Shown here piece by piece: positions 4,131 to 56,944 of a DNA stretch of 64,000 nucleotides (position 1 is its first letter; each line of letters starts with the position of its first letter). The translations under genes were made by a program, and so were the position numbers. The stretch comes from Tricholoma matsutake (Eukaryota; Basidiomycota; Agaricomycetes; Agaricales; Tricholomataceae), in the NCBI GenBank assembly GCA_026075535.2, contig AP026538.1:17182337-17246336 (forward strand), written 5' to 3'. The notes under the pieces are model-generated. The model had not been told where the DNA came from. It made no database searches and was given only the letters and a program-made list of their open reading frames with translations.

Positions 4131-5988
4131 AGATAATATTTTCTGCACTAACAGCCTGGCCAACTGCACACTGAAGTGTGACACCATGCCAGAGAGACAA
4201 CCAGGTAAAACTGACCACTACCCAATAGCAATCATCCTCAAACTAGAGCAGAAGAGAACAGCAATGAACCCATCACAAAACTTCAGAGAAACTGACTGGG
4301 AAGAGTTCAACGCATTCTTGGCAGGGAAATCAAACAACTCACTGCTGCTATCCAGAAAGCAATCAGTACCAAAGTCCCAGAAAACCACCTGTGCCCACTG
4401 TCCAAAAGGTGGTGGACGAAAGACCTGAAGAACATGAAAAAGTTAGTCAATCGCTTACATGCTGAATCCTACAGGTGCTGGGCTATAGAAGATCACCCAA
4501 GTCACCAAGACATCCGACAGGCCCGGTGTAAATATGCAGCGGAAATCGCAAAAGCTAAAACAGACCACTGGAACAACTACCTAAAGAATGCTGAGGGCAA
4601 CAATATTTGGATGGTGAACAGGTATATCTCTAACCCAATAGGCGACAGAGGCCAGACAAGAATCCCCACGCTGAAGGGAAAAGATGATGATGGGACTACT
4701 AGAGAAGTAAACACAAATGAAGACAAGGCAAAGTCTCTCGCAAAAGCCTTTTTCCCACCAAAGCCAGCAATCTTGATGGTCCCACAGGACTATAGCTACC
4801 CACCTCCACTACCCTCACCACCACAAGTCACAGAAGAGCAAATACACACACACATATCAAAACTGTCACCCTACAAGGCCCCAGGACCAGACCAAACTCC
4901 CAATATTGTACTACAGAAGGCAGTAAACCATATAGTCCCATACTTACTCTCCATCTACAGGTCGGTAATAAAGCATGGAACCTACTATCAGGGATGGCAG
5001 GAGTCCATGACATGCATACTACCGAAACCTGGGAAACCGAGCTATGAGGTGCCTAAAGCTTACTGCCCCATAGCTCTGTTATGCACAATGGCAAAAGTCC
5101 TTATGTCTATAGTCTCTGAGAACCTCATATCAATAGCGGAGCAGCAGCAGCTACTGCCAGACACGCACTTCGGTGGAAGACCATGCAGGAGCACAACTGA
5201 TGTGGTGCACCTATTGATTCACCAAGTAAAAGAGGCATGGAGGAAAGGGAAAGTTGTATCAATCCTCTTCCTAAATATAGAAGGAGCTTTTCCTAACGTG
5301 GTAACGGATTGGCTACTACACAATATGAAGAAGAGAAGAGTCCCAAACCAAATAGTCAAATTCATCGAACGGCTACTAAACGGAAGAACAACACAACTCA
5401 AATTTGATGACTATACATTGGACCCAATACCCATAGACAATGGAGTAGGACAAGGAGACCCAATCTCTCTCCCATCTTTCAATTTCTATAATGTGGATCT
5501 ACTCGAGCTGACCAGCACTCTACAGGCACTTGGATATGTCGACGACACGATGGTAATGGCCATTGGAAAAGATTTTGAAGAGACCACTCAGGCCATCTGC
5601 AAACATATGGAAGGGGCAAATGGCGGGTTTAAGTGGTCAGCTGACCACAACTCCAAGTTCAAAATCAGTAAGTTAGCAGTCATGCAACTAGGCCAGAAGA
5701 AAACTAGGTCACCAACTGGCACCCTCCAACCAATGCGCAAGCCAAAGCTCAACCTACAAGGAAAAGAGGTAAACACAGTTGACAGATACAGGTATCTTGG
5801 CATAGTCATTGATGACAAGCGAACATGGAGAAGGCATGAAGAGAAGGTCATAGAAAATGCCACTAAATGGGTACTGCAATGCCGCCGCCTAGTGAAAATC
5901 GACACTGGAATATCACCTAACCACATGCATCAGCTTTACATGACAGTTGCAATACCTGAGATGACCTATGGAGCAGACATATGGTATA
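4131..5988 (+). pseudogene. LINE ORF2 fragment, left arm: endonuclease tail and reverse transcriptase
   Basis: The 5' part (4131-4428) is the C-terminal endonuclease region, and the long frame 4434-6008 is a non-LTR reverse transcriptase with SPYKAPGPDQ, CPIALLCTMAKV, GVGQGDPIS and the catalytic GYVDDTMVMA. Motif A reads FLNIEGAFPNV, so its metal-binding Asp is Asn here, whereas the right-arm copy keeps FLDIEGAF. The coding sequence breaks off at 5988 in YGADIWY, where Gypsy-A is inserted; translation beyond that point is LTR sequence. It is truncated at 4131 by the palindrome junction, so no complete endonuclease remains. Confidence 0.9.
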
Positions 5989-6748
5989 TGTTACAATTTT
6001 CCTTGTAACTCATGGAACCCAATGCACCCGACGATCCCCTCCAGACAGGAGGCACCCCTTGATTCATGCCTAGGGCATGTCTTTGGCACCAGACACACAC
6101 ATGATGCATGCCAACTGTATGCATTCGATCCCCTTCCCATGGAAGGCACCCTTGACACATGGTGACTCCATGCACCCGAACCCACTCCCACACATGCTGC
6201 GATATGACAGCCCCCTGACATGAGGTCCGTGATGTCGGACTCTCACGATCGACATGCTGCGCTGTAGCATGTCCTTGACATTGGATCCTTGACATTGGAT
6301 CCGTGACATCGGACGCCTCATGCTAGGCATGAGGCTTATCTCTTATTGTTTCCTGACATGCTGCGGCACAGCACTCTGTGACATCGGATGCCTCATGCAA
6401 GGCATGAGGCCTATTGTTTCTATTCTTACTTGATACGCATCTATCTTTCTGATTGGACGATAAGGACCTCCCTCGTAGTATAAGTACTGCAACTCATAGT
6501 AGGGATGTCTTTAGTTTAGATCTAGGCAATCTACAGCCTTAACTTGTGAACTCGCAAACTTACTCGAAACCACTAAGGAAGCCCCTTAGTGCATGAACCT
6601 GAACGACTCTATGCAGAAGGCCTGCTAGAGTGCACTATCTCTCTTATGTCGGACGCTCTGAGTAAGACTAGTGCCGAACGACTTGTCGAGGAAGCACCTT
6701 GTCAAACAACATTGACTAGATCGAGTGATTGAGGCTTTGCCCTTAACA
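5989..6748 (+). repeat. Gypsy-A 5' LTR, left arm (760 bp)
   Basis: It starts with a perfect hairpin, GTTACAA and TTGTAAC separated by TTTTCC, and ends GCCCTTAACA. It holds two copies of the palindrome GCCTCATGCNNGGCATGAGGC near 6310-6415; the right-arm LTR has one and is 75 bp shorter. A repeated GACATTGGATCC-type unit lies at 6278-6305. Confidence 0.92.
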
Positions 6749-7064
6749 TAAGATCTAAACTATCTGCTAGCCCACCTACCTAGGTGTAGGCAATACGTCT
6801 CGATACACACCACAGTGACCTGGGTCTAGACAAACCCCAGACTGACCACCAAGAGAAGCAGAACCACAGCCAGGTTCATCTTGGTACCGATACAACAGAA
6901 GACTAGTCCGTTACTCGACCCCAGCACAGCGTTGGTTCTACGGATCAACTGACAGACAACGAGGAGATTTCCTCACCGACAAAGACTTTGAACAACCGCA
7001 CACACCCCCATCCAAAACATCCACCTGCTTCTTAACAGACAAAACCAACGACCTCTATAACGAG
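6749..7064 (+). other. Gypsy-A untranslated leader
   Basis: This is the non-coding stretch between the 5' LTR and the gag start at 7065. A primer-binding site should lie directly after 6748, but no match to a tRNA 3' end ending in CCA was recognised there. Confidence 0.6.
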
Positions 7065-9683
7065 ATGTCCGAACCCGCAACCGCACCAATGATGTCCGTG
7101 AAAGACATTCGAATCTGATCACCCACAGACTTCTCAGGAGAGTGGACCATGACCGCCAAGTTCCTGCAGGAGATAGACCTGTACTTGCGAATCAATGATC
7201 AGGTCTATGCCACGAACGACAAGAAGATCATCTTCACGCTGTCCTTCATGAATGGAGGGACAGCAGCTGCCTGGGCGCAGGCATTCATCAACCAACACCA
7301 GTCCATGATGAACGATCTCTTCCGAGATATGCTAGATGAAGGATGGCTCATCATCTATATGGACGACATCCTGATCTTCTCAAAGATGGAAGAAGAACAC
7401 TGGATAAGGACCGAAAGGGTCCTCGAACAACTATGACAATGTGATCTCTACCTGAGGGTAGAGAAGTGCAAATTCGATGTACAGGAAGTCGAGTTCTTGG
7501 GCATGATCGTCAGACCCAACAAACTTGCAATGGACAACACAAAGCTGGCTGGGATCAAGGACTGGCCCACGCCAAAGACAGTGAAGGATGTAAGATCCTT
7601 CCTAGGATTTGGAAACTTCTATCGACGGTTCATTGTACACTTCGTGGATCTGGCCAGACCGCTGAATGATTTGACAAAGAAGAACCAGAAATTTGAATGG
7701 ACAAACGACTGTCAGCAGTCGTTCAATGCGCTAAAAAGGAAGTTCAACAAAACCCCAGTACTGCTGATGCCAGATGCAACGAAACCATTTGTGGTAGAAT
7801 CTGATGCCTCAAAATTTGTGACAGGCGCAGTACTCAGACAACAGGACGCCAACGGAGACTGGCACCCATGTGGATACATCTCGCATTCTTTCAACAAAGT
7901 GGAAAGAAATTACGAGATATACGACTGAGAACTATTGGGAGTGATCCGAGCGCTAGAAACATGGAGACACTACCTACAGGGGATGCCGTTCCCTGTGACA
8001 GTATTATCCGATCACAAGAACCTGATGTACTTCCATCAGCCACAGAAACTAAACCGATGACAGGCTAGATGGGCCATCTACCTGTCACAATTCGACCTGA
8101 AGCTACAACACATACTGGGATCACAGATGGTACAATCTGATGCCCTATTGAGGAGAGCAGATCACATAGCTGAAGAAGACACCAATAACAAGGACAAGAC
8201 CATCCTCGCTGACAAACTGTTCATCAAAACGATTGACACTGAGCTCCAGGGAGCCCTGGTCTCAGCAATAATGAAGGATGACCTTGTAAATGATGCTTTA
8301 CGAGCCCTGAAAAACAATGGAACTCCCCCAATCAAGTCTGCATTGGAGGACTGGAAATTTGAAGACGGCCTGCTCTTTTTCAAAGACAGATGCTACGTGC
8401 CACAGGACAAAACCCTCCGCTGAGCGATCATATGAAAATACCATGATAGCATCACGACAGGACACCCTGGACAATGGCAGACAATCGAACTGATCCGACG
8501 AGACTACTGGTGGCCAGGAATGGCCAACTTCATCAAGAAGTACGTCGAAGGCTGCACAAAGTGCCAGCAAATGAAAGTGAATACACACCTGACAACCCCA
8601 CTGCCGACACCGATATCATCCGATGCCAGCAGACCATTCGAGCTGGTAACGACAGATTTTATCACGGACTTGCCTGTGATAAACGGATTTGACTCAATCA
8701 TGGTCATGGTAGACCATGGTCTTACGAAGGGGGTAATTTGTATCCCTTGCGCGAAGACGATCGATGCACTTGGCGCCGCAGACCTTTACCTGCACCATGT
8801 ATACACAAGATTTGGACTCCCCGGAAGAATCATCTCAGACAGAGACCCTCGATTCGCATCCAAACTCTTCCGAGAACTCGGACAACTGCTCGGGATTAAG
8901 CTATCCATGAGCACTGCCTATCACCCCCAGACCAACGGAGAAATGGAGCGAGTAAACCAAGAGCTAGAGGTTTACCTCCGCATGTTCTGTTTGAACAAAC
9001 CCGAAGATTGGGAGCATTATCTCCCAACGGCAGAATTCGTGCACAACCAGAAGACGCACTCCACAGTAAAACACTCGCCATTTTACTTGATGATGGGATA
9101 TCGACCACGCACTATCCCCACCCCTTACAAAAAAACGAATGTGCCAGCCGCCGAACAGAGAATCCAAGAACTTCTCTCTGTGAGAAGGGAAGCTCTTGCC
9201 GCACACGAACTAGCCGGACAGGCTATGGCTGCCCAAACGAAAGGGCAATACGAACCATTCAAGGTTGGAGAACAAGTATGGCTTGACTCCAAGAACCTGA
9301 AGATTGGCTACCCAATGAGAAAACTGGCGCCAAAACGAGAAGGGCCCTTCGTGATTGAAGACGCCTTGTCGAGAATGACATACCGATTGAAACTGCCACT
9401 GGGATGGAAGATCCACCCGGTATTCCATGTGGCTTTACTCACGCGATACCATGAGAACGACACTCATGGGCAAAACTTCCTGACTCCACCACCTGACCTC
9501 ATGGAAGGAGAGAACAAATACGAGGTGGAAGCGATCATCGCACACAAGAAGCACGGCAAGACATGCCGTTACCTCATGAAATGGGTTGACTACCCGACAT
9601 CCGAAAACACATGGGAACCCGAATCGAACCTAAAGAATGCCCCTGAGATCCTGATGGCATATAAGAAGAGGTACCACCTCTGA
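7065..9683 (+). pseudogene. Gypsy-A gag-pol deletion derivative, left arm
   Basis: The frame opens MSEPATAP. Gag sequence (FLQEIDLYLRINDQVY) passes directly at MMNDLF into reverse transcriptase ([16 protein letters not shown]), so the rest of gag, protease and the N-terminal reverse transcriptase are missing. RNase H follows (VVESDASKF), then integrase with HHCC residues (CTKCQQMK), core motifs TDFITDLP, IISDRDPRF and NGEMERVNQ, and a chromodomain (YLMKWVDYPTSENTWEP) ending at 9683. In-frame stops occur near 7118, 7434, 7926, 8058, 8421 and 8433; those near 7118, 7434 and 8421 are absent from the right arm. The catalytic YMDD is intact here but is YMDN in the right arm. Confidence 0.92.
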
Positions 9684-10483
9684 TGGAAACCCAAAAACCC
9701 CCCTCTCTTCCCACAACAACACTCCCCAATATGCCTGCCAAACGACGATTTACCCGAGAATACCTACGAAACCGATTGAATGCTGACGCCCTTCGTGTTC
9801 ACCTCGCCCATGATCCACCAAAATACCATCTAGCCAGGATGTGCTTCTACTATGCGAGCACTATCGAACAGATGGAACAAAATCTAGAAGAAGCAATGAA
9901 CAATGCAGACGCCCTGGGGATCGAGCAAACAATCCAGGAAATGATTGCACCGCGGTCAGACAGACCGAGAACAGCTGAGGAGAGACCTCACACCCCTTTA
10001 GGTCAACACAGACGACCACCGACCTCGCTCTCGCCATTCAGGGAGCAGAGCAACAGAGACGAACAATGAGCTCCCTCTGGAGGCTCCTCCCGTTCTACGA
10101 AGAACCCGAAGATCGTGCCTAGGGCACCCGAAATAATTGATCTGACCACCCCCGAACCCGAACCAAAGACCACCCAACCACCTTGGTCTCCCCCACACAT
10201 GAGACATGCTAGATGTTTCATCTGCCAACAGATAGGCCACTTCGGCCTGATTTGCCAACGATACGTTTGCAAGTATTGCAAACAGCGAGGCCCCAGACAC
10301 TATAGGATGAACTGCCCGGAGAAACCTCGGAAAGATCGAGAGACCGATCAAAGAGAAGCCGAACACAGACAGTGGCTCTTCTTTAACTCCGGATACGATG
10401 ATTTTGATGACGACGCGATGGGAAACATGACAGGGGAGCCATATGGAAGGATTTATAAGGCAGAGCTCAAGACGATGGCATGA
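9683..10483 (+). pseudogene. Gypsy-A third ORF with zinc knuckles, left arm
   Basis: The start codon overlaps the pol stop as TGATG (9681-9685), a geometry known to allow termination-reinitiation. The first half is basic and helical (MPAKRRFTREYLRNRL). In the same frame, after a TGA at 10067, comes an IDLTTPEPEP linker and a cysteine-rich region (CFICQQIGHFGLIC, then CKYCKQRGPRHYRMNC) that fits CCHC knuckles of nucleic-acid-binding Gag-like proteins. The right arm has CGA at that stop, and instead carries its own TGA about 17 codons earlier where the left arm has CGA. The ancestral ORF was therefore about 266 codons. Placing a zinc-knuckle ORF after integrase is unusual for Ty3/Gypsy. Confidence 0.75.
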
Positions 10484-10495
10484 CAAGACAGACCC

Positions 10496-10831
10496 ATGCT
10501 CACAGGGATTACGATCCTCGCCATCATTGTTGACATGACCCTGGCTGCAGCGGCAGCCCTAACCTTTGCATTCGGCCTCTACGCCATCTTCCGAACAGAA
10601 CCCGAACCCCCGATTACAGACGTTGAATTTGCCATCCTGCAACGCCCCCCTTTCAACAATACTACCAACTCCTTGACACTGCTACCTAGGGCAGCGCGAA
10701 CCAGAAGAACCCGATCATGGTCTGAGTTCAGACATGAATTATTCCTCCATTGTACCCCTCGACCCCGACCTACCCACATATCCAGACCACCCCCGATCAG
10801 ACCACGAAGGAGAGATGAAGATTTAGGTTGA
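10496..10831 (+). CDS. Gypsy-A fourth ORF, single-pass membrane protein, left arm
   Basis: This 111-residue frame opens 12 bases after the previous stop and in the same frame. Residues 2-31 are strongly hydrophobic (ILAIIV, then AAAAALTFAFGLYAIF), giving one predicted membrane helix. It is followed by a Pro/Arg-rich tail (RTRRTRSWSEFRH, then RPPPIRPRRRDEDLG). There is no cleavage-site-like motif after the helix, so a signal anchor is more likely than a secreted protein. Its position between pol and the 3' LTR is where envelope-like genes sit in some LTR elements, but no envelope homology is recognised. The frame is open in both arms. It could instead be the C-terminal part of the preceding ORF if the shared TGA at 10481 was once sense. 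Confidence 0.55.
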   Translation: MLTGITILAIIVDMTLAAAAALTFAFGLYAIFRTEPEPPITDVEFAILQRPPFNNTTNSLTLLPRAARTRRTRSWSEFRHELFLHCTPRPRPTHISRPPPIRPRRRDEDLG

Positions 10832-10864
10832 AGTGTGGAACTTTCGACCATAGCGAGGGGGTAA

Positions 10865-12300
10865 TGTTACAATTTTCCTTGTAACTCATGGAACCCAATG
10901 CACCCGATGATCCCCTCCAGACAGGAGGCACCCCTTGATTCATGCCTAGGGCATGTCCTTGGCACCAGACACACACACGACGCATGCCAACTGTATGCAT
11001 TTGATCCCCTTCCCATGGAAGGCACCCTTGATGCATGGTGACTCCATGCACCCGAACCCACTCCCACACATGCTGTGATATGACAGCCCCCTGACATGAG
11101 GTCCGTGACGTCGGACTCTCACGATCGACATGCTGCGCCGCAGCATGTCCTTGACATCGGATCCTTGACATCGGACACCTCATGCTAGGCATGAGGCTTA
11201 TCTCTTATTGTTTCCTGACATGCTGCGCCGCAGCACTCCGTGACATCGGACGCCTCATGCAAGGCATGAGGCCTATTGTTTCTATTCTTACTTGATACGC
11301 ATCTATCTTTCTGATTGGATGATAAGTGTTAAGGGCAAAGCCTCAACCACTCGATCTAGTCGATGTCATTCGACGAGGTGCTTCCTCGATGAGTCGTTCT
11401 GCACTAGTCTTACTCGGAGCATCTGACGTAAGAGAGATAGTGCACTCTAGCAGGCCTTCTGCGTAGAGTCGTTCAGGTTCACGCACTAAGGGGCTTCCTT
11501 AGTGGTTTCAAGTAAGTTCGCAAGTTCACAAGTTAAGGCTGTAGATTGCCTAGATCTAAACCAAGGACATCCCTACTACAAGTCGCAGTACTTATACTAG
11601 AAGGGAGGTCCTTATCGTCCAATCGGAAAGGTAGATGTGTATCAAGTAATAATAGAAACAATAGGCCTCATGCCTTGCATGAGGCGTCCAATGTCATGGA
11701 GTGCTGTGGCGCAGCATGTCAGGAAACAATAACAGATAAGCCTCATGCCTAGCATGAGGCGTCCGATGTCACGGACCTCATGTCAGGGGCTGTCATATCA
11801 CAGCATGTGTGGGAGTGGGTTCGGGTGCATGGAGTCACCATGCGTCAAGGGTGCCTTCCATGGGAAGGGGATCGAATGCATACAGTTGGCATGCATCATG
11901 TGTGTGTCTGGTGCCAAGGACATGCCCTAGGCATGAATCAAGGGGTGCCTCCTGTCTGGAGGGGATCATCGGGTGCATCGGGTTCCATGAGTTACAAGGA
12001 AAATTGTAACAATAAGGACCTCCCTCATAGTATAAGTACTGCAACTCGTAGTAGGGATGTCCTTAGTTTAGATCTAGGCAATCTACAGCCTTAACTTGTG
12101 AACTCGCAAACTTACTCGAAACCACTAAGGAAGCCCCTTAGTGTGTGAACCTGAACGACTCTACGCAGAAGGCCTGCTAGAGTGCACTATCTCTCTTACG
12201 TCGGACGCTCTGAGTAAGACTAGTGCCAAACGACTTGTCGAGGAAGCACCTCATCAAACGACATTGACTAGATCGAGTGATTGAGGCTTCGCCCTTAACA
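10865..12300 (+). repeat. Gypsy-A 3' LTR, left arm, split by a nested LTR
   Basis: It starts at the polypurine tract boundary with TGTTACAATTTTCC and ends with CTTAACA at 12300. Removing the nested LTR (11327-12011) and one copy of its target duplication leaves about 746 bp, comparable with the 760-bp 5' LTR. It carries two GCCTCATGC-GGCATGAGGC hairpins. A short repeat near 11150 differs from the right arm by 14 bp. Confidence 0.9.
11327..12011 (-). repeat. Solo Gypsy-A LTR nested in reverse inside the 3' LTR, left arm
   Basis: It reads TGTTAAGG...TTGTAACA on the plus strand, so it is opposite to its host LTR. A 5-bp duplication ATAAG flanks it (11322-11326 and 12012-12016). No internal sequence is present, which is the mark of LTR-LTR recombination after a full insertion. 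The same nested LTR is in the right arm, so it predates the duplication. Confidence 0.92.
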
Positions 12301-12305
12301 GTATA

Positions 12306-12897
12306 GCCCACCACGAAAAAACCCGGGCACAAAACGGATGACAGGATTGGTAAGAATTATGTGACAGCTAACTAAACTCCAGCAGATCACTACTTTGGCC
12401 ATCAATTGTGCATTATGTACCACCCCGACAGACATGCTAAACTCCCAAGAAGCGTAGCGGCAGTGAAGCAGAGGTATCACAATGACCTGCCAAAAAGATG
12501 GAACAACATGTGGCTAGACTTGCCAAGACAACCAAAGCTAAGTCGACTCGACCCAAATTTCTCATACAGCCGGTACACTAAGATACAGTCCAGTCTGAGC
12601 AGGCACCAGGCCAGCCTCCTGACTCAAATTCACACAGGACACATCCTGCTAAACTACTACCTACATCGGATCAAGAAGGCTGACACAAGCAATTGCAATG
12701 CATGTCAAAGAAGAGGGTCGCCCACCAAAGAAACCATCATCCATTTCCTTTTCGAATGCAAGGAATATAACAAAGAACAGCACGAGCTAGACCACAAGAT
12801 GAGAAGGGATTCCAGAGATCTATCCACTTTACTGAGTTCAGAGAAGGGAGTTAAAGCTCTGGTCAGCTATGTAGATAAGACTGGAAGGCTACATTGA
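12306..12897 (+). pseudogene. LINE ORF2 C-terminus, left arm
   Basis: The sequence resumes the LINE after Gypsy-A. It carries the post-RT region (TTLAINCALCTTPTDMLN) in broken frame and then, from 12406, the C-terminal domain (LSRHQASLLTQIHTGHILLN) ending in a zinc knuckle (CNACQ, then HFLFEC), as in Tad/I-group LINEs. The RNase H domain expected between these parts is missing. The copy differs from the right arm at two residues of the last 163. Confidence 0.85.
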
Positions 12898-13387
12898 TCT
12901 AAAGGTGAATACCCAGTCTCATAAAGAACTCATGCTTGCATGCAGTCATACAGGGCACCACGACGATATGGTTTCATCCACTCACTACCAACTCAAAATA
13001 CAAATACAAGCCTGCAACACAGGGGACTCCAGAAGAATATACAAAGTACATGCTGACTGCGAGAACCAAGATAGCTGACACATGCGACTACTTTTGTCCA
13101 CCTTGGCAATGAGCCAGGCGCTTAACAGTCATATAAAATCCCAATATGACAAAATGCCAGGCGAACAAACAGAGAGGTTGAAGGAGGTCCTGCAGTCCTA
13201 AATGGCTCGAGGAACAAGGTCTCAGGGGGAGCAATTGCCAAGGGCATGCCATCTGAGATGCAAGGACTGGGGCGAGGGCAAGGCAATGGGGCCTCGAGTA
13301 GATACTCTAAAAATGTAAAGACCATTATAGGGCACTCCCTGAGAGGTTGTGAAAATGACAAAAAAAAAAAGAAAAAAAAAGAATAAA
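12898..13387 (+). mobile_element. LINE 3' untranslated region and A-rich tail, left arm
   Basis: After the stop the sequence has no credible frame and ends at 13360-13387 in A11-G-A9-G followed by AATAAATAC. This fits the poly(A)-type 3' terminus left by target-primed reverse transcription. The target duplication could not be matched because the LINE 5' boundary is unclear. Confidence 0.75.
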
Positions 13388-14366
13388 TACTAGACTCACA
13401 TTGATAGGCTGCTCTCGAAAAAATACCCACAGGGGCGTTTGATGGGTAGCATACTATTTTGACCTATTTTTGACATCCGAAAGCTACATGACTACTTTGG
13501 TGTGCAATTTGAAAAGCCCTGGGCAATTGAGAAGTTGGGGGCCTATCATTTGACTCTTGAGTTTAGCTGGAATGCCATAATCACACAATGGGATGATAAC
13601 AATTGAGTTGCTGAGGGACTAACCTAGATTCAACATCTGTCACCCATCCATTTAATTCAAATAGATTGTTGCATTAGAATTTGGACTAATTATGAAGCTG
13701 CTCATCACGTCGCATTCACTTTTGCTGTGTGGGAAAGTAGAATTTCCATTTTTGGCATATTTATTTATTTTATTCAACTCGATCCATTTGGTGAATGACC
13801 TTCTTTTGTTCAGAATCAAACACAGCACATCAAAAGGAAGTGATTCCACTATTTTTGGTAATTTTAGTGATTTTTTTGAGGGGTGGCCAAATCTTTTAGG
13901 GTCAAAAACCAAGATGGTTGATTTATAAGAATCAGCTTGTACAAACCTGTTCATTATGGTCAAAAATACATGTCTGACTGGTTTTTAGACTGTCTGAATG
14001 TTTGTGCCTTCCCACAAAATTCAGTCAAAAATATTGTCGTGTTTGGCTGTCCGCAACTGTAGGTAAGGTGAAACTTGTTGGGTTAGGCCATGGCTATGCC
14101 TGGCATGAATGAGTCCTCATGGACTTTTTTCTCTCTTCTTTTGATGCAAGCCATATGGCAGATAACATATACAATTGTGGTATAAAACAAACAAACTGGA
14201 GTCTGGCTTTCAATAATGTACAGGAATGAAACACCTTACACTGTTTCATTATCTGGAACATTTCCTTCACTAAGCAGTGCCCAAGACAGGATGTGCACAG
14301 ATCTCAATAACAGAACTGAGGAACGAAGTATGTCGCAAAGTTCATGTAGTAGGCTTTGGTTCCAGG
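13388..14366. other. AT-rich interval without a recognised gene
   Basis: Only short frames with biased composition are present, among them a 103-residue minus-strand frame at 13652-13963 that resembles nothing known to me. The mirrored interval is 46118-47096. It contains TCAAAAATA-type short repeats but no clear terminal repeats. Confidence 0.5.
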
Positions 14367-16014: not shown

Positions 16015-16245
16015 GGTAATGTGAAATTGGTCATGGGAGTGTGAAGGGACTGTCATACTGGGGATTTGCTTGCACTGACATCGAGTCGACAGCCCAAGCT
16101 TTTACAACAGTCCATGATTATCTCATGCACATCATCCCAGATCATCAGTGTCAACAGATGGACTTCAGGGTAATATTTGTTGAGTATGCTTTCTGCAAAT
16201 CTGGCTGGCTCAACACTAGTATATTCAGAAATGTGTATCAAAAAA

Positions 16246-16451: not shown

Positions 16452-16618
16452 CCCTCCCCCTCCATCAACAACAAGATGACAACCAATAAAGGGAAAGGAA
16501 AAAAAAATTTACATAAAAGGTGCACAATCATGGGTGCATTAAAAACCCACTTGGGGAAAAGCTACCGGTCAGTGTTCGAAAGCAAAAAGAGCTATCTAAG
16601 ATAAAACCCTGTCCTTTC

Positions 16619-17858: not shown

Positions 17859-17859
17859 G

Positions 17860-21279: not shown

Positions 21280-21289
21280 CCTTATGCAG

Positions 21290-42638: not shown

Positions 42639-42639
42639 C

Positions 42640-46117: not shown

Positions 46118-47096
46118 CCTGGAACCAAAGCCTACTACATGAACTTTGCGACATACTTCGTTCCTCAGTTCTGTTATTGAGATCTGTGCACATCCTGTCT
46201 TGGGCACTGCTTAGTGAAGGAAATGTTCCAGATAATGAAACAGTGTAAGGTGTTTCATTCCTGTACATTATTGAAAGCCAGACTCCAGTTTGTTTGTTTT
46301 ATACCACAATTGTATATGTTATCTGCCATATGGCTTGCATCAAAAGAAGAGAGAAAAAAGTCCATGAGGACTCATTCATGCCAGGCATAGCCATGGCCCA
46401 ACCCAACAAGTTTCACCTTACCTACAGTTGCGGACAGCCAAACACGACAATAGTTTTGACTGAATTTTGTGGGAAGGCACAAACATTCAGACAGTCTAAA
46501 AACCAGTCAGACATGTATTTTTGACCATAATGAACAGGTTTGTACAAGCTGATTCTTATAAATCAACCATCTTGGTTTTTGACCCTAAAAGATTTGGCCA
46601 CCCCTCAAAAAAATCACTAAAATTACCAAAAATAGTGGAATCACTTTTTTTTGATGTGCTGTGTTTGATTCTGAACAAAAGAAGGTCATTCACCAAATGG
46701 ATCGAGTTGAATAAAATAAATAAATATGCCAAAAATGGAAATTCTACTTTCCCACACAGCAAAAGTGAATGCAACGTGATGAGCAGCTTCATAATTAGTC
46801 CAAATTCTAATGCAACAATCTATTTGAATTAAATGGATGGGTGACAGATGTTGAATCTAGGTTAGTCCCTCAGCAACTCAATTGTTATCATCCCATTGTG
46901 TGATTATGGCATTCCAGCTAAACTCAAGAGTCAAATGATAGGCCCCCAACTTCTCGATTGCCCAGGGCTTTTCAAATTGCACACCAAAGTAGTCATGTAG
47001 CTTTCGGATGTCGAAAATAGGTCAAAATAGTATGCTACCCATCAAACGCCCCTGTGGGTATTTTTTCGAGAGCAGCCTATCAATGTGAGTCTAGTA
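46118..47096. other. AT-rich interval without a recognised gene, right arm
   Basis: Mirror of 13388-14366. Frames at 46294-46524 and 46521-46832 are short and unrecognised, and the second differs from its mirror at two residues. Confidence 0.5.
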
Positions 47097-47586
47097 TTTA
47101 TTCTTTTTTTTTCTTTTTTTTTTTGTCATTTTCACAACCTCTCAGGGAGTGCCCTATAATGGTCTTTACATTTTTAGAGTATCTACTCGAGGCCCCATTG
47201 CCTTGCCCTCGCCCCAGTCCTTGCATCTCAGATGGCATGCCCTTGGCAATTGCTCCCCCTGAGACCTTGTTCCTCGAGCCATTTAGGACTGCAGGACCTC
47301 CTTCAACCTCTCTGTTTGTTCGCCTGGCATTTTGTCATATTGGGATTTTATATGACTGTTAAGCGCCTGGCTCATTGCCAAGGTGGACAAAAGTAGTCGC
47401 ATGTGTCAGCTATCTTGGTTCTCGCAGTCAGCATGTACTTTGTATATTCTTCTGGAGTCCCCTGTGTTGCAGGCTTGTATTTGTATTTTGAGTTGGTAGT
47501 GAGTGGATGAAACCATATCGTTGTGGTGCCCTGTATGACTGCATGCAAGCATGAGTTCTTTAGGAGACTGGGTATTCACCTTTAGA

Positions 47587-48178
47587 TCAATGTAGCCTTC
47601 CAGTCTTACCTACATAGCTGACCAGAGCTTTAACTCCCTTCTCTGAACTCAGTAAAGTGGATAGATCTCTGGAATCCCTTCTCATCTTGTGGTCTAGCTC
47701 GTGCTGTTCTTTGTTATATTCCTTGCATTCGAAAAGGAAATGGATGATGGTTTCTTTGGTGGGCGACCCTCTTCTTTGACATGCATTGCAATTGCTTGTG
47801 TCAGCCTTCTTGATCCGATGTAGGTAGTAGTTTAGCAGGATGTGTCCTGTGTGAATTTGAGTCAGGAGGCTGGCCTGGTGCCTGCTCAGACTGGACTGTA
47901 TCTTAGTGTACCAGCTGTATGAGAAATTCGGGTCGAGTCGACTTAGCTTTGGTTGTCTTGGCAAGTCTAGCCACATGTTGTTCCATCTTTTTGGCAGGTC
48001 ATTGTGATACCTCTGCTTCACTGCCGCTACGCTTCTTGGGAGTTTAGCATGTCTGTCGGGGTGGTACATAATGCACAATTGATGGCCAAAGTAGTGATCT
48101 GCTGGAGTTTAGTTAGCTGTCACATAATTCTTACCAATCCTGTCATCCATTTTGTGCCCGGGTTTTTTCGTGGTGGGC
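47587..48178 (-). pseudogene. LINE ORF2 C-terminus, right arm
   Basis: Mirror of 12306-12897, with the zinc knuckle CNACQ...HFLFEC intact. It differs at SYSWYTK (left SYSRYTK) and YVGK (left YVDK). The 3' untranslated region and tail follow at 47097-47586. Confidence 0.85.
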
Positions 48179-48183
48179 TATAC

Positions 48184-49633
48184 TGTTAAGGGCGAAGCCT
48201 CAATCACTCGATCTAGTCAATGTCGTTTGATGAGGTGCTTCCTCGACAAGTCGTTTGGCACTAGTCTTACTCAGAGCGTCCGACGTAAGAGAGATAGTGC
48301 ACTCTAGTAGGCCTTCTGCGTAGAGTCATTCAGGTTCACACACTAAGGGGCTTCCTTAGTGGTTTTGAGTAAGTTTGCGAGTTCACAAGTTAAGGCTGTA
48401 GATTGCCTAGATCTAAACTAAGGACATCCCTACTATGAGTTGCAGTACTTATACTATGAGGGAGGTCCTTATTGTTACAATTTTCCTTGTAACTCATGGA
48501 ACCCGATGCACCCGATGATCCGCTCCAGACAGGAGGCACCCCTTGATTCATGCCTAGGGCATGTCCTTGGCACCAGACACACACATGACGCATGCCAACT
48601 GTATGCATTCGATCCCCTTCCCATGGAAGGCACCCTTGACGCATGGTGACTCCATGCACCCAAACCCACTCCCACACATGCTGTGATATGACAGCCCCTG
48701 ACATGAGGTCCGTGACATCGGACGCCTCATGCTAGGCATGAGGCTTATCTGTTATTGTTTCCTGACATGCTGCGCCACAGCACTCCATGACATCGGACGC
48801 CTCATGCAAGGCATGAGGCCTATTGTTTCTATTATTACTTGATACACATCTACCTTTCCGATTGGACGATAAGGACCTCCCTTCTAGTATAAGTACTGCG
48901 ACTTGTAGTAGGGATGTCCTTGGTTTAGATCTAGGCAATCTACAGCCTTAACTTGTGAACTTGCGAACTTACTCGAAACCACTAAGGAAGCCCCTTAGTG
49001 CGTGAACCTGAACGACTCTACGCAGAAGGCCTGCTAGAGTGCACTATCTCTCTTACGTCAGACGCTCCGAGTAAGACTAGTGCAGAACGACTTGTCGAGG
49101 AAGCACCTCGTCGAACGACATCGACTAGATCGAGTGGTTGAGGCTTTGCCCTTAACACTTATCATCCAATCAGAAAGATAGATGCGTATCAAGTAAGAAT
49201 AGAAACAATAGGCCTCATGCCTTGCATGAGGCGTCCGATGTCACGGAGTGCTGCGGCGCAGCATGTCAGGAAACAATAAGAGATAAGCCTCATGCCTAGC
49301 ATGAGGCGTCCGATGTCACGGATCCAATGTCAAGGATCCAATGTCAAGGACATGCTGCGGCGCAGCATGTCGATCGTGAGAGTCCGACGTCACGGACCTC
49401 ATGTCAGGGGGCTGTCATATCACAGCATATGTGGGAGTGGGTTCGGGTGCATGGAGTCACCATGCGTCAAGGGTGCCTTCCATGGGAAGGGGATCGAATG
49501 CATACAGTTGGCATGCGTCGTGTGTGTGTCTGGTGCCAAGGACATGCCCTAGGCATGAATCAAGGGGTGCCTCCTGTCTGGAGGGGATCATCGGGTGCAT
49601 TGGGTTCCATGAGTTACAAGGAAAATTGTAACA
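48184..49633 (-). repeat. Gypsy-A 3' LTR, right arm, split by a nested LTR
   Basis: TGTTAAGG at 48184 to TTGTAACA at 49633 on the plus strand. It has two direct copies of GGATCCAATGTCAA near 49320-49347, one more 14-bp unit than the left arm. Confidence 0.9.
48473..49157 (+). repeat. Solo Gypsy-A LTR nested in the 3' LTR, right arm (685 bp)
   Basis: TGTTACAATTTTCC...CCCTTAACA, flanked by the 5-bp duplication CTTAT (48468-48472 and 49158-49162). Mirror of 11327-12011. Confidence 0.92.
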
Positions 49634-49666
49634 TTACCCCCTCGCTATGGTCGAAAGTTCCACACT

Positions 49667-50002
49667 TCAACCTAAATCTTCATCTCTCCTTCGTGGTCTG
49701 ATTGGGGGTGGTCTGGATATGTGGGTAGGTCGGGGTCGAGGGGTACGATGGAGGAATAATTCATGTCTGAACTCGGACCATGATCGGGTTCTTCTGGTTC
49801 GCGCTGCCCTAGGTAGCGGTGTCAAGGAGTCGGTAGTATTGTTGAAAGGGGGGCGTTGCAGGATGGCAAATTCAACGTCTGTAATCGGGGGTTCAGGTTC
49901 TGTTCGGAAGATGGCGTAGAGGCTGAATGCAAAGGTTAGGGCTGCCGCTGCAGCCAGGGTCATGCCAACGATGATGGCAAGGATCGTAATCCCTGTGAGC
50001 AT
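49667..50002 (-). CDS. Gypsy-A fourth ORF, single-pass membrane protein, right arm
   Basis: 111 residues with the same N-terminal hydrophobic helix and Pro/Arg-rich tail as 10496-10831. It differs at a few residues (VGMT against VDMT, AFSLYAIF against AFGLYAIF, TDSLTPLPR against TNSLTLLPR) and has no stop. Retention of an open frame in both arms, when all neighbouring element genes are broken, may be chance for so short a frame. Confidence 0.55.
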   Translation of the reverse strand: MLTGITILAIIVGMTLAAAAALTFAFSLYAIFRTEPEPPITDVEFAILQRPPFNNTTDSLTPLPRAARTRRTRSWSEFRHELFLHRTPRPRPTHISRPPPIRPRRRDEDLG

Positions 50003-50014
50003 GGGTCTGTCTTG

Positions 50015-50815
50015 TCATGCCATCGTCTTGAGCTCTGCCTTATAAATCCTTCCATATGGCTCCCCTGTCATGTTTCCCATCGCGTCGTCATCAAAATCAT
50101 CGTATCCGGAGTTAAAGAAGAGCCACTGTCTGTGTTCAGCTTCTCTTTGATCGGTCTCTCGATCTTTCTGAGGTTTCTCTGGGCAGTTCATCCTATAGTG
50201 TCTGGGGCCTTGCTGTTTGCAATACTTGCAAACATATCGTTGGCAAATCAGGCCGAAGTGGCCTATCTGTTGGCAGATGAAACATCTAGCATGTCTCATG
50301 TGTGGGGGAGACCAAGGTGGTTGGGTGGTCTTTGGTTCGGGTTCGGGGGTGGTCAGATCAATTATTTCGGGTGCCCTAGGCACGATCTTCAGGTTCTTCG
50401 TAGAACGGGAGGAGCCTCCAGAGGGAGCTCGTCGTTCGTCTCTGTCGCTCTGCTCCCTGAATGGCGAGAGCGAGGTCGGTGGTCATCTGTGTCGACCTAA
50501 AGGGGTGTGAGGTCTCTCCTCAGCTGTTCTCGGTCTGTCTGACCGCGGTGCAATCATTTCCTGGATTGTTTGCTTGATCCCCAGGGCGTCTGCATCGTTC
50601 ATTGCTTCTTCTAGATTTTGTTCCATCTGTTCGATAGTGCTCGCATAGTAGAAGCACATCCTGGCTAGATGGTATTTTGGTGGATCATGGGCGAGGTGAA
50701 CACGAAGGGCGTCAGCGTTCAATCGGTTTCGTAGGTATTCTCGGGTAAATCGTCGTTTGGCAGGCATATTGGGGAGTGTTGTTGTGGGAAGAGAGGGGGG
50801 TTTTTGGGTTTCCAT
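50015..50815 (-). pseudogene. Gypsy-A third ORF with zinc knuckles, right arm
   Basis: It starts at 50815 overlapping the pol stop (TGATG on the minus strand). It is cut after HTPLGRHR by a private TGA near 50483 and then stays open in the same frame through the linker and knuckles (CFICQQIGHFGLIC) to 50015. The left arm is open at this TGA but has its own stop 51 bases further on. Together the two arms show that the ORF was once continuous. Confidence 0.75.
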
Positions 50816-53433
50816 CAGAGGTGGTACCTCTTCTTATATGCCATCAGGATCTCAGGGGCATTCTTTAGGTTCGATTCGGGTTCCCATGTGTTTTCGGATG
50901 TCGGGTAGTCAACCCATTTCATGAGGTAACAGCATGTCTTGCTGTGCTTCTTGTGTGCGATGATCGCTTCCACCTCGTATTTGTTCTCTCCTTCCATGAG
51001 GTCAGGTGGTGGAGTCAGGAAGTTTTGCCCATGAGTGTCATTCTCATGGTATCGCGTGAGTAAAGCCACATGGAATACCGGGTGGATCTTCCATCCCAGT
51101 GGCAGTTTCAATCGGTATGTCATTCTCGACAAGGCGTCTTCAATCACGAAGGGCCCTTCTCGTTTTGGCGCCAGTTTTCTCATTGGGTAGCCAATCTTCA
51201 GGTTCTTGGAGTCAAGCCATACTTGTTCTCCAACCTTGAATGGTTCGTATTGCCCTTTCGTTTGGGCAGCCATAGCCTGTCCGGCTAGTTTGTGTGCGGC
51301 AAGAGCTTCCCTTCTCACAGAGAGAAGTTCTTGGATTCTCTGTTTGGCGGCCGGCACATTCGTTTTTTTGTAAGGGGTGGGGATAGCGCGTGGTCGATAT
51401 CCCATCATCAAGTAAAATGGCGAGTGTTTTACTGTGGAGTGCGTCTTCTGGTTGTGCACGAATTCTGCCATTGGGAGATAATGCTCCCAATCTTCGGGTT
51501 TGTTCGAACAGAACATGCGGAGGTAAACCTCTAGCTCTTGGTTTACTCGCTCCGTTTCTCCGTTGGTCTGGGGGTGATAGGCGGTGCTCATGGATAGCTT
51601 AATCCCGAGCAGTCGTCCGAGTTCTCGGAAGAGTTTGGATGCAAATCGAGGGTCTCTGTCTGAGATGATTCTTCCAGGGAGTCCAAATCTTGTGTATACA
51701 TGGTGCAGGTAAAGGTCTGCAGCGCCAAGTGCATCGATTGTCTTCGTGCAAGGGATAAAAATTACCACCTTCGTAAGACCATGGTCTACCACGACCATGA
51801 TTGAGTCAAATCCGTTTATCATGGGCAAGTCCATGATAAAATCTGTCGTTACCAGCTCGAATGGTCTGCTGGCATCGGATGATATCGGTGTCGGTGGTGG
51901 GGTTGTCAGGTGTGTATTCACTTTCATTTGCTGGCACTTTGCACAGCCTTCGACGTACTTCTTGATGAAGTTGGCCATTCCTGGCCACCAGTAGTCTCGT
52001 CAGATCAGTTTGATTGTCTGCCATTGTCCAGGGTGTCCTGTCGTGATGCTATCATGGTATTTTCATATGATCGCTCGGCGGAGGGTTTTGTCCTGTGGCA
52101 CATAGCATCTGTCTTTGAAAAAGAGCAGGCCATCTTCAAATTTCCAGTCCTCCAATGCAGACTTGATTGGGGGAGTTCCATTGTTTTTCAGGGCTCGTAA
52201 AGCATCATTTACGAGGTCATCCTTCATTATTGCTGAGACCAGGGCTCCCTGGAGCTCAGTGTCAATCGTTTTGATGAACAGTTTGTCAGCGAGGATGGTC
52301 TTGTCCTCGTTATTGGTGTCTTCTTTGGCTATGTGATCTGCTCTCCTCAATAGGGCATCAGATTGTACCATCTGTGATCCCAGTACGTGTTGTAGCTTCA
52401 GGTCAAATTGTGACAGGTAGATGGCCCATCTAGCCTGTCATCGGTTTAGTTTCTGTGGCTGATGGAAGTACGTCAGGTTCTTGTGATTGGATAATACCGT
52501 CACAGGGAATGGCATCCCCTGTAGGTAGTGTCTCCATGTTTCTAGCGCTCAGATCACTCCCAATAGTTCTCAGTCGTATATCTCGTAATTTCTTTCCACT
52601 TTGTTGAAAGAATGCGAGATGTATCCGCATGGGTGCCAGTCTCCATTGGCGTCCTGTTGTCTGAGTACTGCGCCTGTTGCGAATTTTGAGGCATCAGATT
52701 CTACCACAAATGGTTTCGTTGCATCTGGCATCAGCAGTACTGGGGTTTCGTTGAACTTCCTTTTTAGCGCATTGAACGACTGCTGACAGTCGTTCGTCCA
52801 TTCAAATTTCTGGTTCTTCTTCATCAAATCGTTCAGCGGTCTGGCCAGATCCACGAAGTGTCCGATGAATTGTCGATAGAAGTTTCCAAATCCTAGGAAG
52901 GATCTTACATCCTTCACTGTCTTTGGCGTGGGCCAGTCCTTGATCCCAGCCAGCTTTGTGTTGTCCATTGCAAGTTCGTTGGGTCTGACAATCATGCCCA
53001 AGAACTCGACTTCCTGTACGTCGAATTTGCACTTCTCTACCCTCAGGTAGAGATCACATTGTCGTAGTCGTTCGAGGACCCTTTTGGTCCTTATCCGGTG
53101 TTCTTCTTCCGTCTTTGAGAAGATCAGGATGTTGTCCATATAGATGATGAGCCATCCTTCATCTAGCATATCTCAGAAGAGATCGTTCATCATGGACTGG
53201 TGTTGGTTGACGAATGCCTGTGCCCAGGCAGCTGCTGTCCCTCCATTCATGAAGGACAGTGTGAAGATGATCTTCTTGTCATTCGTGTCATAGACCTGAT
53301 CATTGATTCGCAAGTACAGGTCTATCTCCTGCAGGAACTTGGCAGTCTTGGTCCGCTCTCCTGAGAAGTCTGTGGGTGATTGGATTCGAATGTCTTTCAC
53401 GGACATCGTTGGTGCGGTTGCGGGTTCGGACAT
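50815..53433 (-). pseudogene. Gypsy-A gag-pol deletion derivative, right arm
   Basis: Mirror of 7065-9683 with the same gag-to-RT deletion joint at MMNDLF. Here a TGA at 53170-53172 directly follows the joint (left arm CGA), and the catalytic box is YMDN, not YMDD. The frames 53169-52570, 52371-52063 and 51978-50815 carry the RT thumb and RNase H, the linker, and integrase plus chromodomain. Stops at the positions equivalent to 7926 and 8058 are shared with the left arm. The integrase segment differs from its partner at roughly 15 of 387 residues. Confidence 0.92.
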
Positions 53434-53749
53434 CTCGTTATAGAGGTCGTTGGTTTCGTCTGTTAAGAAGCAGGTGGATGTTTTGGATGGGGGTGTGTGC
53501 GGTTGTTCAAAGTCTTTGTCGGTGAGGAAATCTCCTCGTTGTCTGTCAGTTGATCTGTAGAACCAACGCTGTGCTGGGGTCGAGTAATGGACTAGTCTTC
53601 TGTTGTATCGGTACCAAGATGAACCTGGCTGTGGTTCTGCTTCTCTTGGTGGTCAGTCTGGGGTTTGTCTAGACCCAGGTCGCTGTGGTGTGTATCGAGA
53701 CATATTGCCTACACCTAGGTAGGTGGGCTAGCAGATAGTTTAGATCTTA
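53434..53749 (-). other. Gypsy-A untranslated leader, right arm
   Basis: Mirror of 6749-7064, with no frame of interest. Confidence 0.6.
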
Positions 53750-54434
53750 TGTTAAGGGCGAAGCCTCAATCACTCGATCTAGTCAATGTCATTTGACAAG
53801 GTGCTTCCTTGACAAGTCGTTCGGCACTAGTCTTACTCGGAGCGTCCGACGTAAGAGAGATAGTGCACTCTAGCAGGCCTTCTGCATAGAGTCGTTCAGG
53901 TTCACGCACTAAGAGGCTTCCTTAGTGGTTTCGAGTAAGTTTGCGAGTTCACAAGTTAAGGCTGTAGATTGCCTAGATCTAAACTAAGGACATCCCTACT
54001 ACGAGTTGCAGTACTTATACTATGAGGGAGGTCCTTATCGTCCAATCAGAAAGATAGATGTGTATCAAGTAAGAATAGAAACAATAGGCCTCATGCCTAG
54101 CATGAGGCGTCCGATGTCACGGATCCAATGTCAAGGATCCAATGTCAAGGACATGCTACAGTGCAGCATGTCGATCGTGAGAGTCCGACATCACGGACCT
54201 CATGTCAGGGGGCTGTCATATCGCAGCATGTGTGGGAGTGGGTTCGGGTGCATGGAGTCACCATGTGTCAAGGGTGCCTTCCACGGGAAGGGGATCGAAT
54301 GCATACAGTTGGCATGCATCATGTGTGTGTCTGGTGCCAAAGACATGCCCTAGGCATGAATCAAGGGGTGCCTCCTGTCTGGAGGGGATCGTCGGGTGCG
54401 TCGGGTTCCATGAGTTACAAGGAAAATTGTAACA
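53750..54434 (-). repeat. Gypsy-A 5' LTR, right arm (685 bp)
   Basis: TGTTAAGGGCGAAGC...GAAAATTGTAACA on the plus strand. It has a single GCCTCATGC-GGCATGAGGC hairpin near 54090, whereas the left-arm LTR has two separated by the 75 bp missing here. The deletion is consistent with recombination or slippage between the hairpin repeats. Confidence 0.92.
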
Positions 54435-56016
54435 TATACCATATGTCTGCTCCATAGGTCATCTCAGGTATTGCAACTGTCATGTAAAGCTGATGCATGT
54501 GGTTAGGTGATATTCCAGTGTCGATTTTCACTAGGCGGTGGCATTGCAGTACCCATTTAGTGGCATTTTCTATGACCTTCTCTTCATGCCTTCTCCATGT
54601 TAGCTTGTCATCAATGACTATGCCAAGATACCTGTATCTGTCAACTGTGTTTACCTCTTTTCCTTGTAGGTTGAGCTTCGGCTTGCGCATTGGTTGGAGG
54701 GTGCCAGTTGGTGACCTAGTTTTCTTCTGGCCTAGTTGCATGACTGCTAACTTACTGATTTTGAACTTGGAGTTGTGGTCAGCTGACCACTTAAACCCGC
54801 CATTTTCCCCTTCCATATGTTTGCAGATGGCCTGAGTGGTCTCTTCAAAATCTTTTCCAATGGCCATTACCATCACATCGTCGACATATCCAAGTGCCTG
54901 TAGAGTGCTGGTCAGCTCGAGTAGATCCACATTATAGAAATTGAAAGATGGGAGAGAGATTGGGTCTCCTTGTCCTACTCCATTGTCTATGGGTATTGGG
55001 TCCAATGTATAGTCATCAAATTTGAGTTGTGTTGTTCTTCCGTTTAGTAGCCGTTCGATGAATTTGACTATTTGGTTTGGGACTCTTCTCTTCTTCATAT
55101 TGTGTAGTAGCCAATCCGTTACCACATTAGGAAAAGCTCCTTCTATATCTAGGAAGAGGATTGATACAACTTTCCCTTTCCTCCATGCCTCTTTTACTTG
55201 GTGAATCAATAGGTGCACCACATCAGTTGTGCTCCTGCATGGTCTTCCACTGAAGTGCGTGTCTGGCAGTAGCTGCTGCTGCTCCACTATTGATATGAGG
55301 TTCTCAGAGACTATAGACATAAGGACTTTTGCCATTGTGCATAACAGAGCTATGGGGCAGTAAGCTTTAGGCACCTCATAGCTTGGTTTCCCAGGTTTCG
55401 GTAGTATGCATGTCATGGACTCCTGCCATCCCTGATAGTAGGTTCCATGCTTTATTACCGACCTGTAGATGGAGAGTAAGTATGGGACTATATGGTTTAC
55501 TGCCTTCTGTAGTACAATGTTGGGAATTTGGTCTGGTCCTGGGGCCTTGTAGGGTGACAGTTTTGATATGTGTGTGTGTATTTGCTCTTCTGTGACTTGT
55601 GGTGGTGAGGGTAGTGGAGGTGGGTAGCTATAGTCCTGTGGGACCGTCAAGATTGCTGGCTTTGGTGGGAAAAAGGCTTTTGCGAGAGACTTTGCCTTGT
55701 CTTCATTTGTGTTTACTTCTCTAGTAGTCCCATCATCATCTTTTCCCTTCAGCGTGGGGATTCTTGTCTGGCCTCTGTCGCCTATTGGGTTAGAGATATA
55801 CCTGTTCACCATCCAAATATTGTTGCCCTCAGCATTCTTTAGGTAGTTGTTCCAGTGGTCTGTTTTAGCTTTTGCGATTTCCGCTGCATATTTACACTGG
55901 GCCTGTTGGATGTCTTGGTGACTTGGGTGATCTTCTATAGCCCAGCACCTGTAGGATTCAGCATGTAAGCGATTGACTAACTTTTTCATGTTCTTCAGGT
56001 CTTTTGTCCACCACAT
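54435..56016 (-). pseudogene. LINE reverse transcriptase, right arm
   Basis: A long frame of 533 codons, of which the last few are Gypsy-A LTR. Motifs are APGPDQIPN, FLDIEGAFPNV (catalytic Asp intact), GVGQGDPIS, GYVDDVMVMA and YLGIVIDDKLTWRRH. The reverse transcriptase core looks functional at the residue level, unlike the left-arm copy, but the protein is severed by Gypsy-A before its C-terminal domain. Confidence 0.9.
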
Positions 56017-56944
56017 TTTGGACAGTGGGCACAGGTGGTTTTCTGGGACTTTGGTACTGATTGCTTTCTGGATAGCAGCAGTGAGTTGTTCGATTTCCCT
56101 GCCAAGAATGCGTTGAACTCTTCCCAGTCGGTTTCTCTGAAGTTTTGTGATGGGTTCATTGCTGTTCTCTTCTGCTCTAGTTTGAGGATGATTGCTATTG
56201 GGTAGTGGTCAGTTTTACCTGGTTGTCTCTCTGGCATGGTGTCACACTTCAGTGTGCAGTTGGCCAGGCTGTTAGTGCAGAAAATATTATCTGGTCTGGA
56301 GAAACGCTTTGTTACCATGTGTTTTAGTGTGGGGATACTCTTTGGTAATGGCATGAACATTTCTTGGTCCACTATTAGTTTGATTAGTTCTTGTGTGTCC
56401 TTGAGAGCTTTGGTTGTAAAAAGGCACGAGTCTTTGTCTCTGTCCCACATGGGGTGGTGTCGGTTGAAGTCCCCCCCCCCCACAGTACGTGATGAACTTG
56501 TTGACCACGCGATTCATTTTGGTTATTGTGCATGTACCTTCTTAGTATTGACAGAGAATGCAAGTTCTCACCTGCATTGTAGATGCTGAAGATTTTTAGG
56601 CTACCATACCCGCCATTCAGTTCAATTGCTACTATGTCGTTCAAGTTGGGGATGTCTAGGATTATCCAGTTGTTAGTGGAAAGTGCTGTATTTACCCATA
56701 TTGTAGACTGCATGGTCGAGTATAAGACTGCTCGCGAGGTGAGGGCTACTGCTATAAATCGGTTCGTCGTTCTGATGCTGCTAAAAAAAGTGATGTATGG
56801 TTCCTGAACTAGTACAATATCCCAGTGGGCTGCCAGTGAGTCGTTGATGAGTTCAAGATGTGCAGTGAGTGATTTGTTCAGGTTTATTTGGAGAATTCTT
56901 AACTTTGTTGTCAGGTTTGGTTCATTACTCATTCGCTGTTCCAT
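55995..56944 (-). pseudogene. LINE endonuclease domain with homopolymer frameshift
   Basis: The first part (56944-56480) is an apurinic-type endonuclease start (LRILQINLNKS, VLVQEPYI). The frame changes at a run of ten G on the minus strand (plus strand C10, 56468-56477), where it becomes GGGDFNRHHPMWD, the catalytic GDFN motif. It continues to 55995 through DHYPIAI, which holds the catalytic His of the SDH-type motif. A one-base change in the run would account for the break, so either polymerase slippage or a consensus error is possible. Only the part below 56292 is in the palindrome. Confidence 0.85.

Follow-up and report, generated by a model that had tools for sequence, protein, structure and literature searches.

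A 64,000-nucleotide stretch of the genome of the matsutake mushroom Tricholoma matsutake (C1:17182337-17246336; hereafter the window) contains two inverted arms of almost 24 kb that meet at a 27-bp centre inside a retroelement, here called Gypsy-B. This arrangement is probably a real inverted duplication, or palindrome, carried by at least one nucleus of the sequenced dikaryon, which would have arisen by a fold-back and a microhomology join and been followed by conversion between its arms. The reading is carried by a fold-back lying within one assembled contig, a Gypsy-B element split in two with one target duplication, an element of the long interspersed nuclear element (LINE) type that is cut on the left side only, and an arm core that is identical on both sides. 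Together these features are stronger evidence than the mutations private to each arm, to which the earlier note on this DNA had pointed. C1 has 19,249,005 bases, and the genome searched comprised 161,040,721 bases in 13 contigs.

Architecture of the probable palindrome

The sequence from 4131 to 28032 is present again, inverted, to the right of an asymmetric 27-bp centre (28033-28059). The length of these arms excludes a chance origin. The window consists of two contigs, A (1-34822) and B (34923-64000), on either side of its only run of N, and no further N occurs in the 100 kb to either side of the window. The arms are composed as follows, with LTR denoting a long terminal repeat.

4131..28032, no strand: left arm, 23,902 bp, taken to be the inverted copy that was added
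17467..28032, no strand: identical core, the inner 10,566 bp, with no difference to the right arm save an extra T at 34478 that is absent from contig B
26068..26468, minus strand: solo LTR nested in Gypsy-B, with an AGCAC target duplication on both sides, mirrored in the right arm
28029..28063, plus strand: centre, made up of TATT (28029-28032), a 27-bp native Gypsy-B loop (28033-28059) and AATA (28060-28063)
28060..34822, no strand: inner part of the right arm at the end of contig A, equal to the left arm for 6,418 bp outward from the centre and then carrying the extra T
34823..34922, no strand: scaffold gap of 100 N
34923..39227, no strand: start of contig B, a redundant second writing of 30517-34822
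34923..56292, no strand: right arm within contig B, its inner 8,109 bp identical to the left arm of contig A

The centre lies within contig A, 6.8 kb ahead of the gap, and the contig folds back on itself perfectly for 6,418 bp, as far as the extra T. The 27-bp spacer consists of ordinary Gypsy-B sequence, matches the left-flank copy exactly and sits between the 4-bp inverted repeat TATT/AATA. In all five other Gypsy-B copies checked, and in the left-flank copy, the element runs on beyond the fold-back point into AATAGT or GATAGT; three of the five have AATA there and two GATA. A 501-bp probe across the centre matched end to end only at this locus, in both orientations, among 80 matches listed (best 40 of 1,509 candidates scored). 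A probe from the core (18000-20000) found two copies at 100% identity, the next being at 96% (best 40 of 445 candidates scored).

The nested elements are mirrored together with their target duplications, as the earlier note had stated: the 5′ LTR of Gypsy-B with TGTGC and the solo LTR with AGCAC occur in both arms. Beyond the outer boundaries the symmetry ends. Positions 1-4140 and 56280-64000 gave no significant match to each other (best E 0.24), and in a self-comparison of 264 kb, covering the flanks to 100 kb, no pair of at least 1 kb extends the palindrome outward, which speaks against a longer allelic join. The same 264 kb contains eight other inverted pairs of at least 200 bp spaced closer than 1 kb, four outside the window and four inside the arms, the longest of 362 columns.

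The gap and the corrected coordinates

The earlier note had described a giant near-perfect palindrome at 4131-56292. The inverted arms and their 27-bp centre stand, but the length of the right arm does not, as this arm is cut by the gap and some 4.3 kb of it is written twice. The end of contig A (30517-34822) equals the start of contig B (34923-39227), the sole difference being the extra T, 345 bases before contig A ends. Since the left arm agrees with the contig B version, this T is most likely a contig-end error. With the overlap collapsed, the right arm measures 23,827 bp instead of the raw 28,233 bp. Its 75-bp shortfall against the left arm corresponds to one 75-bp indel at 6410, while two smaller indels in the left arm and one in the right nearly cancel.

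In the published account, chromosome 1 of the TMA_r1.1 assembly consists of the hifiasm contigs A3, A4 and A9 joined with 100 Ns (Kurokochi et al. 2023, PMC10211490), and the HiFi reads, from a Sequel IIe library, have an N50 of 10-11 kb. Contig A stops 6.8 kb beyond the centre, and contig B starts 8.1 kb inside the identical core, roughly one read length away from the first variant of the right arm (43031). The assembly presumably broke here because most reads were too short to bridge an identical core of 10.6 kb per arm. Such a break would be the behaviour expected of a real palindrome in an assembly of this kind, and the rival explanations weighed below account for it less directly.

The gap appears to be the joint between A4 and A9, which the published text says is backed by phased contigs (PMC10211490); that backing would favour continuity only if the two are indeed the same. 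The published polymerase chain reaction (PCR) was considered as further support for the joint and set aside, as neither primer has an exact match in the window or in the 100 kb on either side. Primer 1 has eight exact and two one-mismatch matches, the closest to the gap being 1.9 Mb away on the same chromosome, and primer 2 finds none in the assembly even when one mismatch is allowed; both primers were published for the other joint of chromosome 1.

One split element and the ancestral order

The two outer boundaries differ in kind, and the elements that they cut indicate which of them is old.

295..299, minus strand: target site duplication at the 3′ end of the split Gypsy-B, TGTGC in the sense of the element
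300..4130, minus strand: 3′ half of the split Gypsy-B, with the 3′ LTR at 300-679 and an integrase zinc-binding domain in the open reading frame (ORF) 1618-2334
3873..4130, minus strand: left-flank copy of the Gypsy-B stretch 27805-28063, with four substitutions and one indel relative to the arm copy
4126..4130, no strand: derived left junction, AGAC common to the LINE and Gypsy-B, followed by the T of Gypsy-B in place of the C of the right arm
24314..24318, plus strand: target site duplication TGTGC before the Gypsy-B 5′ LTR (24319-24699) in the left arm
31774..31778, minus strand: target duplication TGTGC in the right arm, beside the 5′ LTR at 31393-31773
54415..58127, minus strand: LINE-like element, running across the right outer boundary (56292/56293) and cut at 4131 in the left arm

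The left-flank Gypsy-B stops at 4130, within its reverse-transcriptase region, and the arms carry Gypsy-B from its 5′ LTR to 28063. Because the same TGTGC stands outside the left-flank LTR and outside both arm LTRs, these are two halves of one insertion, not two copies; what the earlier note had taken for a separate "Gypsy-B copy 1" belongs to the central element as its second half. Between the LTRs of this split insertion, identity is 95.3%, and 259 bp of it (27805-28063) are kept in the left flank as well as in the arms. The 3′ half also contains an insertion of about 770 bp (2274-3046) that is absent from four of five copies compared, the fifth having no alignment there.

At the right boundary the LINE continues unbroken. 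An ORF at 55995-56483 encodes an Exo_endo_phos_2 endonuclease domain (residues 3-96, E 9.2e-8, above the curated cut-off) that spans 56292/56293 and is followed by reverse transcriptase. A 600-bp probe across this boundary (best 40 of 70 candidates scored) matched the window, the left arm and 38 other loci; all 38 others run through the boundary, and the left-arm match ends at probe position 301, which is the boundary itself. As the LINE is continuous on the right and cut on the left, the right boundary represents the ancestral state and the left boundary the derived one. The left junction occurs only once in the genome at up to three mismatches.

The anatomy thus shows an ancestral order of left flank, whole Gypsy-B, arm, LINE and right flank, and the left arm can be read as an inverted copy added between the two halves of Gypsy-B. 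A path leading from the left-flank Gypsy-B straight into the right arm would represent this ancestral arrangement. The names LINE and Gypsy follow matches to RVT_1, Exo_endo_phos_2, gag and integrase, and are in other respects putative.

Divergent outer arms and an identical core

Between the left arm of contig A and the right arm of contig B there are 188 substitutions and four indels, one substitution (4130) falling at the junction. The other 187 lie in the outer arm (4131-17466) and amount to 1.40% divergence. Transitions make up 176 of the 188, and 139 of these are at CpG sites, 67 derived in the left arm and 72 in the right, so that each arm has mutated independently. The private mutations in each arm that the earlier note had reported are therefore present and exclude a pure copy; alone, they do not separate arms from alleles, since 1.40% has to be set against a heterozygosity of 1.05%.

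The inner 10,566 bp behave differently. Under a Poisson model of length and CpG count fitted to the outer arm, 110 differences would be expected in the core, and none is found. Between contigs A and B alone, the same model predicts 87 differences over 8,109 bp, against none observed. The expectation for the core falls to 46 when the lower rate of 13126-17466 alone, with 19 single-nucleotide variants (SNVs), is used, and the core is not poor in CpG (198 sites). The 259-bp piece in the left flank, which parted from the arm at the same event, has accumulated four substitutions and one indel, compared with none in the core (p = 7.5e-9). The arms are more alike than the age of the duplication predicts, on the assumption that both belong to one lineage.

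These values suggest a nested order, with the Gypsy-B insertion at 4.7%, the duplication at 1.4-1.9% and the core identity at zero. The simplest cause of the core identity would be arm-to-arm gene conversion starting at or near the centre. A smooth gradient of divergence from centre to edge was also considered and not retained, as most differences are CpG transitions and CpG density varies; with CpG as a covariate, distance has p = 2.6e-4 at an overdispersion of 2.0. Over 4126-28032, within one arm, the ratio of observed to expected CpG varies between 0.03 and 0.96 from one kilobase to another, which suggests elements of different age or methylation history.

Possible route of formation

The starting point, as the anatomy shows, was a chromosome with the left flank, one whole Gypsy-B, the arm, the LINE and the right flank. 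Synthesis within Gypsy-B may then have folded back at TATT, the 27-base loop and AATA, and copied the arm outward; the junctions are seen directly, the process only through them. Some 23.9 kb further on, within the LINE, the copy would have been joined to Gypsy-B at the 4-bp match AGAC. Thereafter, to judge from the pattern of differences, conversion starting at or near the centre would have preserved identity over more than 10 kb of each arm, while differences built up in the outer arms and in the left-flank piece. The presence of the same 259 bp of Gypsy-B on both sides would require replication or a sister chromatid, as a clean break and rejoining cannot give it.

Three routes fit this product, and none is preferred: fold-back priming with later breakage and joining, two-step microhomology template switching, and an inverted triplication of the type produced by origin-dependent inverted-repeat amplification (ODIRA) that was trimmed by deletion. 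For the first, the centre falls at a short inverted repeat of the parental sequence with the loop retained (TATT-27-AATA), and a secondary junction, the unique Gypsy-B/LINE join with AGAC, ends the inverted copy. Both features resemble the fold-back inversions described in Saccharomyces cerevisiae, which have a centre at a pre-existing short inverted repeat, a kept loop, long arms and a second rearrangement that closes the event (PMC7467729, PMC10622511). According to these reports, the median fold-back loop, counted over unique sites, is 35.5 nt in Mre11/Sae2-proficient cells (PMC7467729, PMC10622511), and of three wild-type events two formed at a 5-bp repeat with a 35-bp spacer (PMC10622511), compared with 4 bp and 27 bp in matsutake. 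The yeast cases, as described there, are selected laboratory rearrangements, mostly from repair mutants, whereas the matsutake palindrome arose naturally, lies in an interstitial position and has had time for its outer arms to diverge by 1.4%.

ODIRA triplications, as reported for yeast (PMC10766186), share the interrupted short inverted repeat at one junction, and such a triplication with a later microhomology deletion would yield exactly the matsutake order, including the 259-bp overlap. However, only one junction here lies at an interrupted inverted repeat; the outer LINE/Gypsy-B junction lacks one and is joined at a direct 4-base match. The core probe also found two copies, not three with the middle one inverted. 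The ODIRA repeats of yeast are given as 5-6 bp with 40-80 bp between them (PMC10766186), against 4 and 27 here. A later deletion could have removed an original ODIRA junction.

For the conversion step, the closest likenesses are palindrome P6 of the human Y (PMC3723533) and the willow W palindromes (PMC7023750), where arms are described as held nearly identical by kilobase conversion tracts; in P6 the tracts average 2,068 bp and reach more than 9 kb (PMC3723533). The arms in these accounts bear genes, and the willow spacers measure kilobases, whereas in matsutake transposons make up most of the arms, the spacer spans 27 bp and identity is confined to the inner 44% of the arm. Assembly palindromes reported in Adineta vaga and Folsomia candida (PMC7953838, PMC5490193) likewise place inverted blocks in one scaffold with possibly allelic divergence. 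In contrast to these, the matsutake centre is contained in a single contig and the two new junctions are known at base resolution, although the gap leaves the same doubt. Titles and abstracts on fungal palindromes and on basidiomycete inverted repeats with gene conversion yielded no comparable natural case, which is no proof of absence.

Competing explanations

The earlier note had set a genuine palindrome against a head-to-head join or a fold-back read. A genuine palindrome is the best reading, with support that is still partial, and several observations weigh against it. The palindrome is known from assembled sequence alone, crosses a gap and shows its centre only in the last 13.5 kb of a contig. 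The outer divergence is close to the heterozygosity of 1.05% given in the published account (PMC10211490), so contig B might carry the right arm of the other nucleus. Outside the core, the apparent gradient partly reflects CpG density, and only the step to zero at 17466 is firm. Matches of 4 bp are by themselves weak evidence. Finally, it is with the left arm that the loop is continuous in native order, contrary to the prediction for a self-primed right-hand end. A simple self-primed fold-back of a right-hand broken end was rejected on this last ground and stays among the three routes only with an added step. A crossover between the arms, or breakage of the first arm, could explain the placement of the loop; crossovers between palindrome arms are reported as known though rare (P6, PMC3723533).

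An unlikely alternative is a heterozygous inversion, in which one nucleus has the arm inverted and 259 bp duplicated at a staggered breakpoint, contig A being the inverted allele ending in a chimeric fold-back read and contig B the standard allele. This would account for the left junction, the duplicated 259 bp, the gap and the outer divergence near heterozygosity. However, it requires one artefact exactly at the breakpoint, and the window lacks the predicted join between the right flank and the 5′ half of Gypsy-B. One survey describes a virtual absence of fold-back reads from the genomic HiFi data of a PacBio Revio (PMC12870357), whereas the library here is Sequel IIe. Moreover, inversion alleles as old as the split of five differences in 259 bp should differ over 8,109 bp, although allelic conversion or a homozygous run could equalise them.

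It is more doubtful still that the palindrome is real but owes its core identity to something other than gene conversion, either a single recent re-copying or a contig B arm from the other nucleus combined with a homozygous run. A step at 17466 describes the SNV pattern no worse than a gradient does, and one long re-copying would leave the same trace. Each of these options needs a separate event, however, and the core is symmetric about the centre, as repair initiated there predicts.

A pure assembly artefact, with two standard haplotypes joined head to head over the 100-N gap, is extremely improbable. Contig A alone holds two novel junctions with only 4-bp matches (4130; 28033-28063), both of which would need to be chimeric, and overlap-based assembly is not known to create such junctions. 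The left junction lies inside a contig, with at least 100 kb further left free of N, and the arms meet in contig A rather than only across the gap. The gap in the right arm and the redundant contig ends would fit an artefact, and artificial palindromes from erroneous scaffolding have been reported (PMC7953838). Divergence here is 1.40% in the outer arms against a heterozygosity of 1.05%, and zero in the inner part.

Gene content and neighbouring repeats

All Pfam-matching ORFs scanned in the arms and left flank encode retroelement proteins (reverse transcriptase, integrase, chromodomain, gag). No Pfam match was obtained for three arm ORFs of 156-163 amino acids and two others, and matches below the curated cut-offs, such as that of ORF 56384-56944, were disregarded as chance. 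The predicted proteins give no sign of a selected function, and the palindrome is probably best viewed as a rearrangement in transposon-rich DNA.

A repeat family of 250-700 bp occurs in both orientations in each arm (5983-6748 and 10860-12300, with mirrors at 48184-49638 and 53750-54440) and forms small inverted pairs 391-645 bp apart. In the right flank, 61061-63794 contains another LTR-type element with a reverse transcriptase ORF.

Implications for palindrome formation and survival

At this locus the published telomere-to-telomere chromosome is interrupted by a gap, and the 4.3 kb of sequence written redundantly around it should be collapsed. The wider interest of the locus lies in how such structures arise and persist. 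We tentatively propose that a 24-kb palindrome around a 27-bp spacer has survived in a natural fungal chromosome until its outer arms diverged by 1.4%, and that its centre may have been repeatedly rewritten, being broken or extruded and then repaired from the other arm instead of deleted. If this is true, the split retroelement would serve as an internal clock, by which one could measure in a natural setting how fragile a near-perfect palindrome is and how it is homogenised. With both junctions, the ancestral state and the internal clock readable from one sequence, the formation, survival and homogenisation of palindromes would become testable in a wild dikaryotic fungus.

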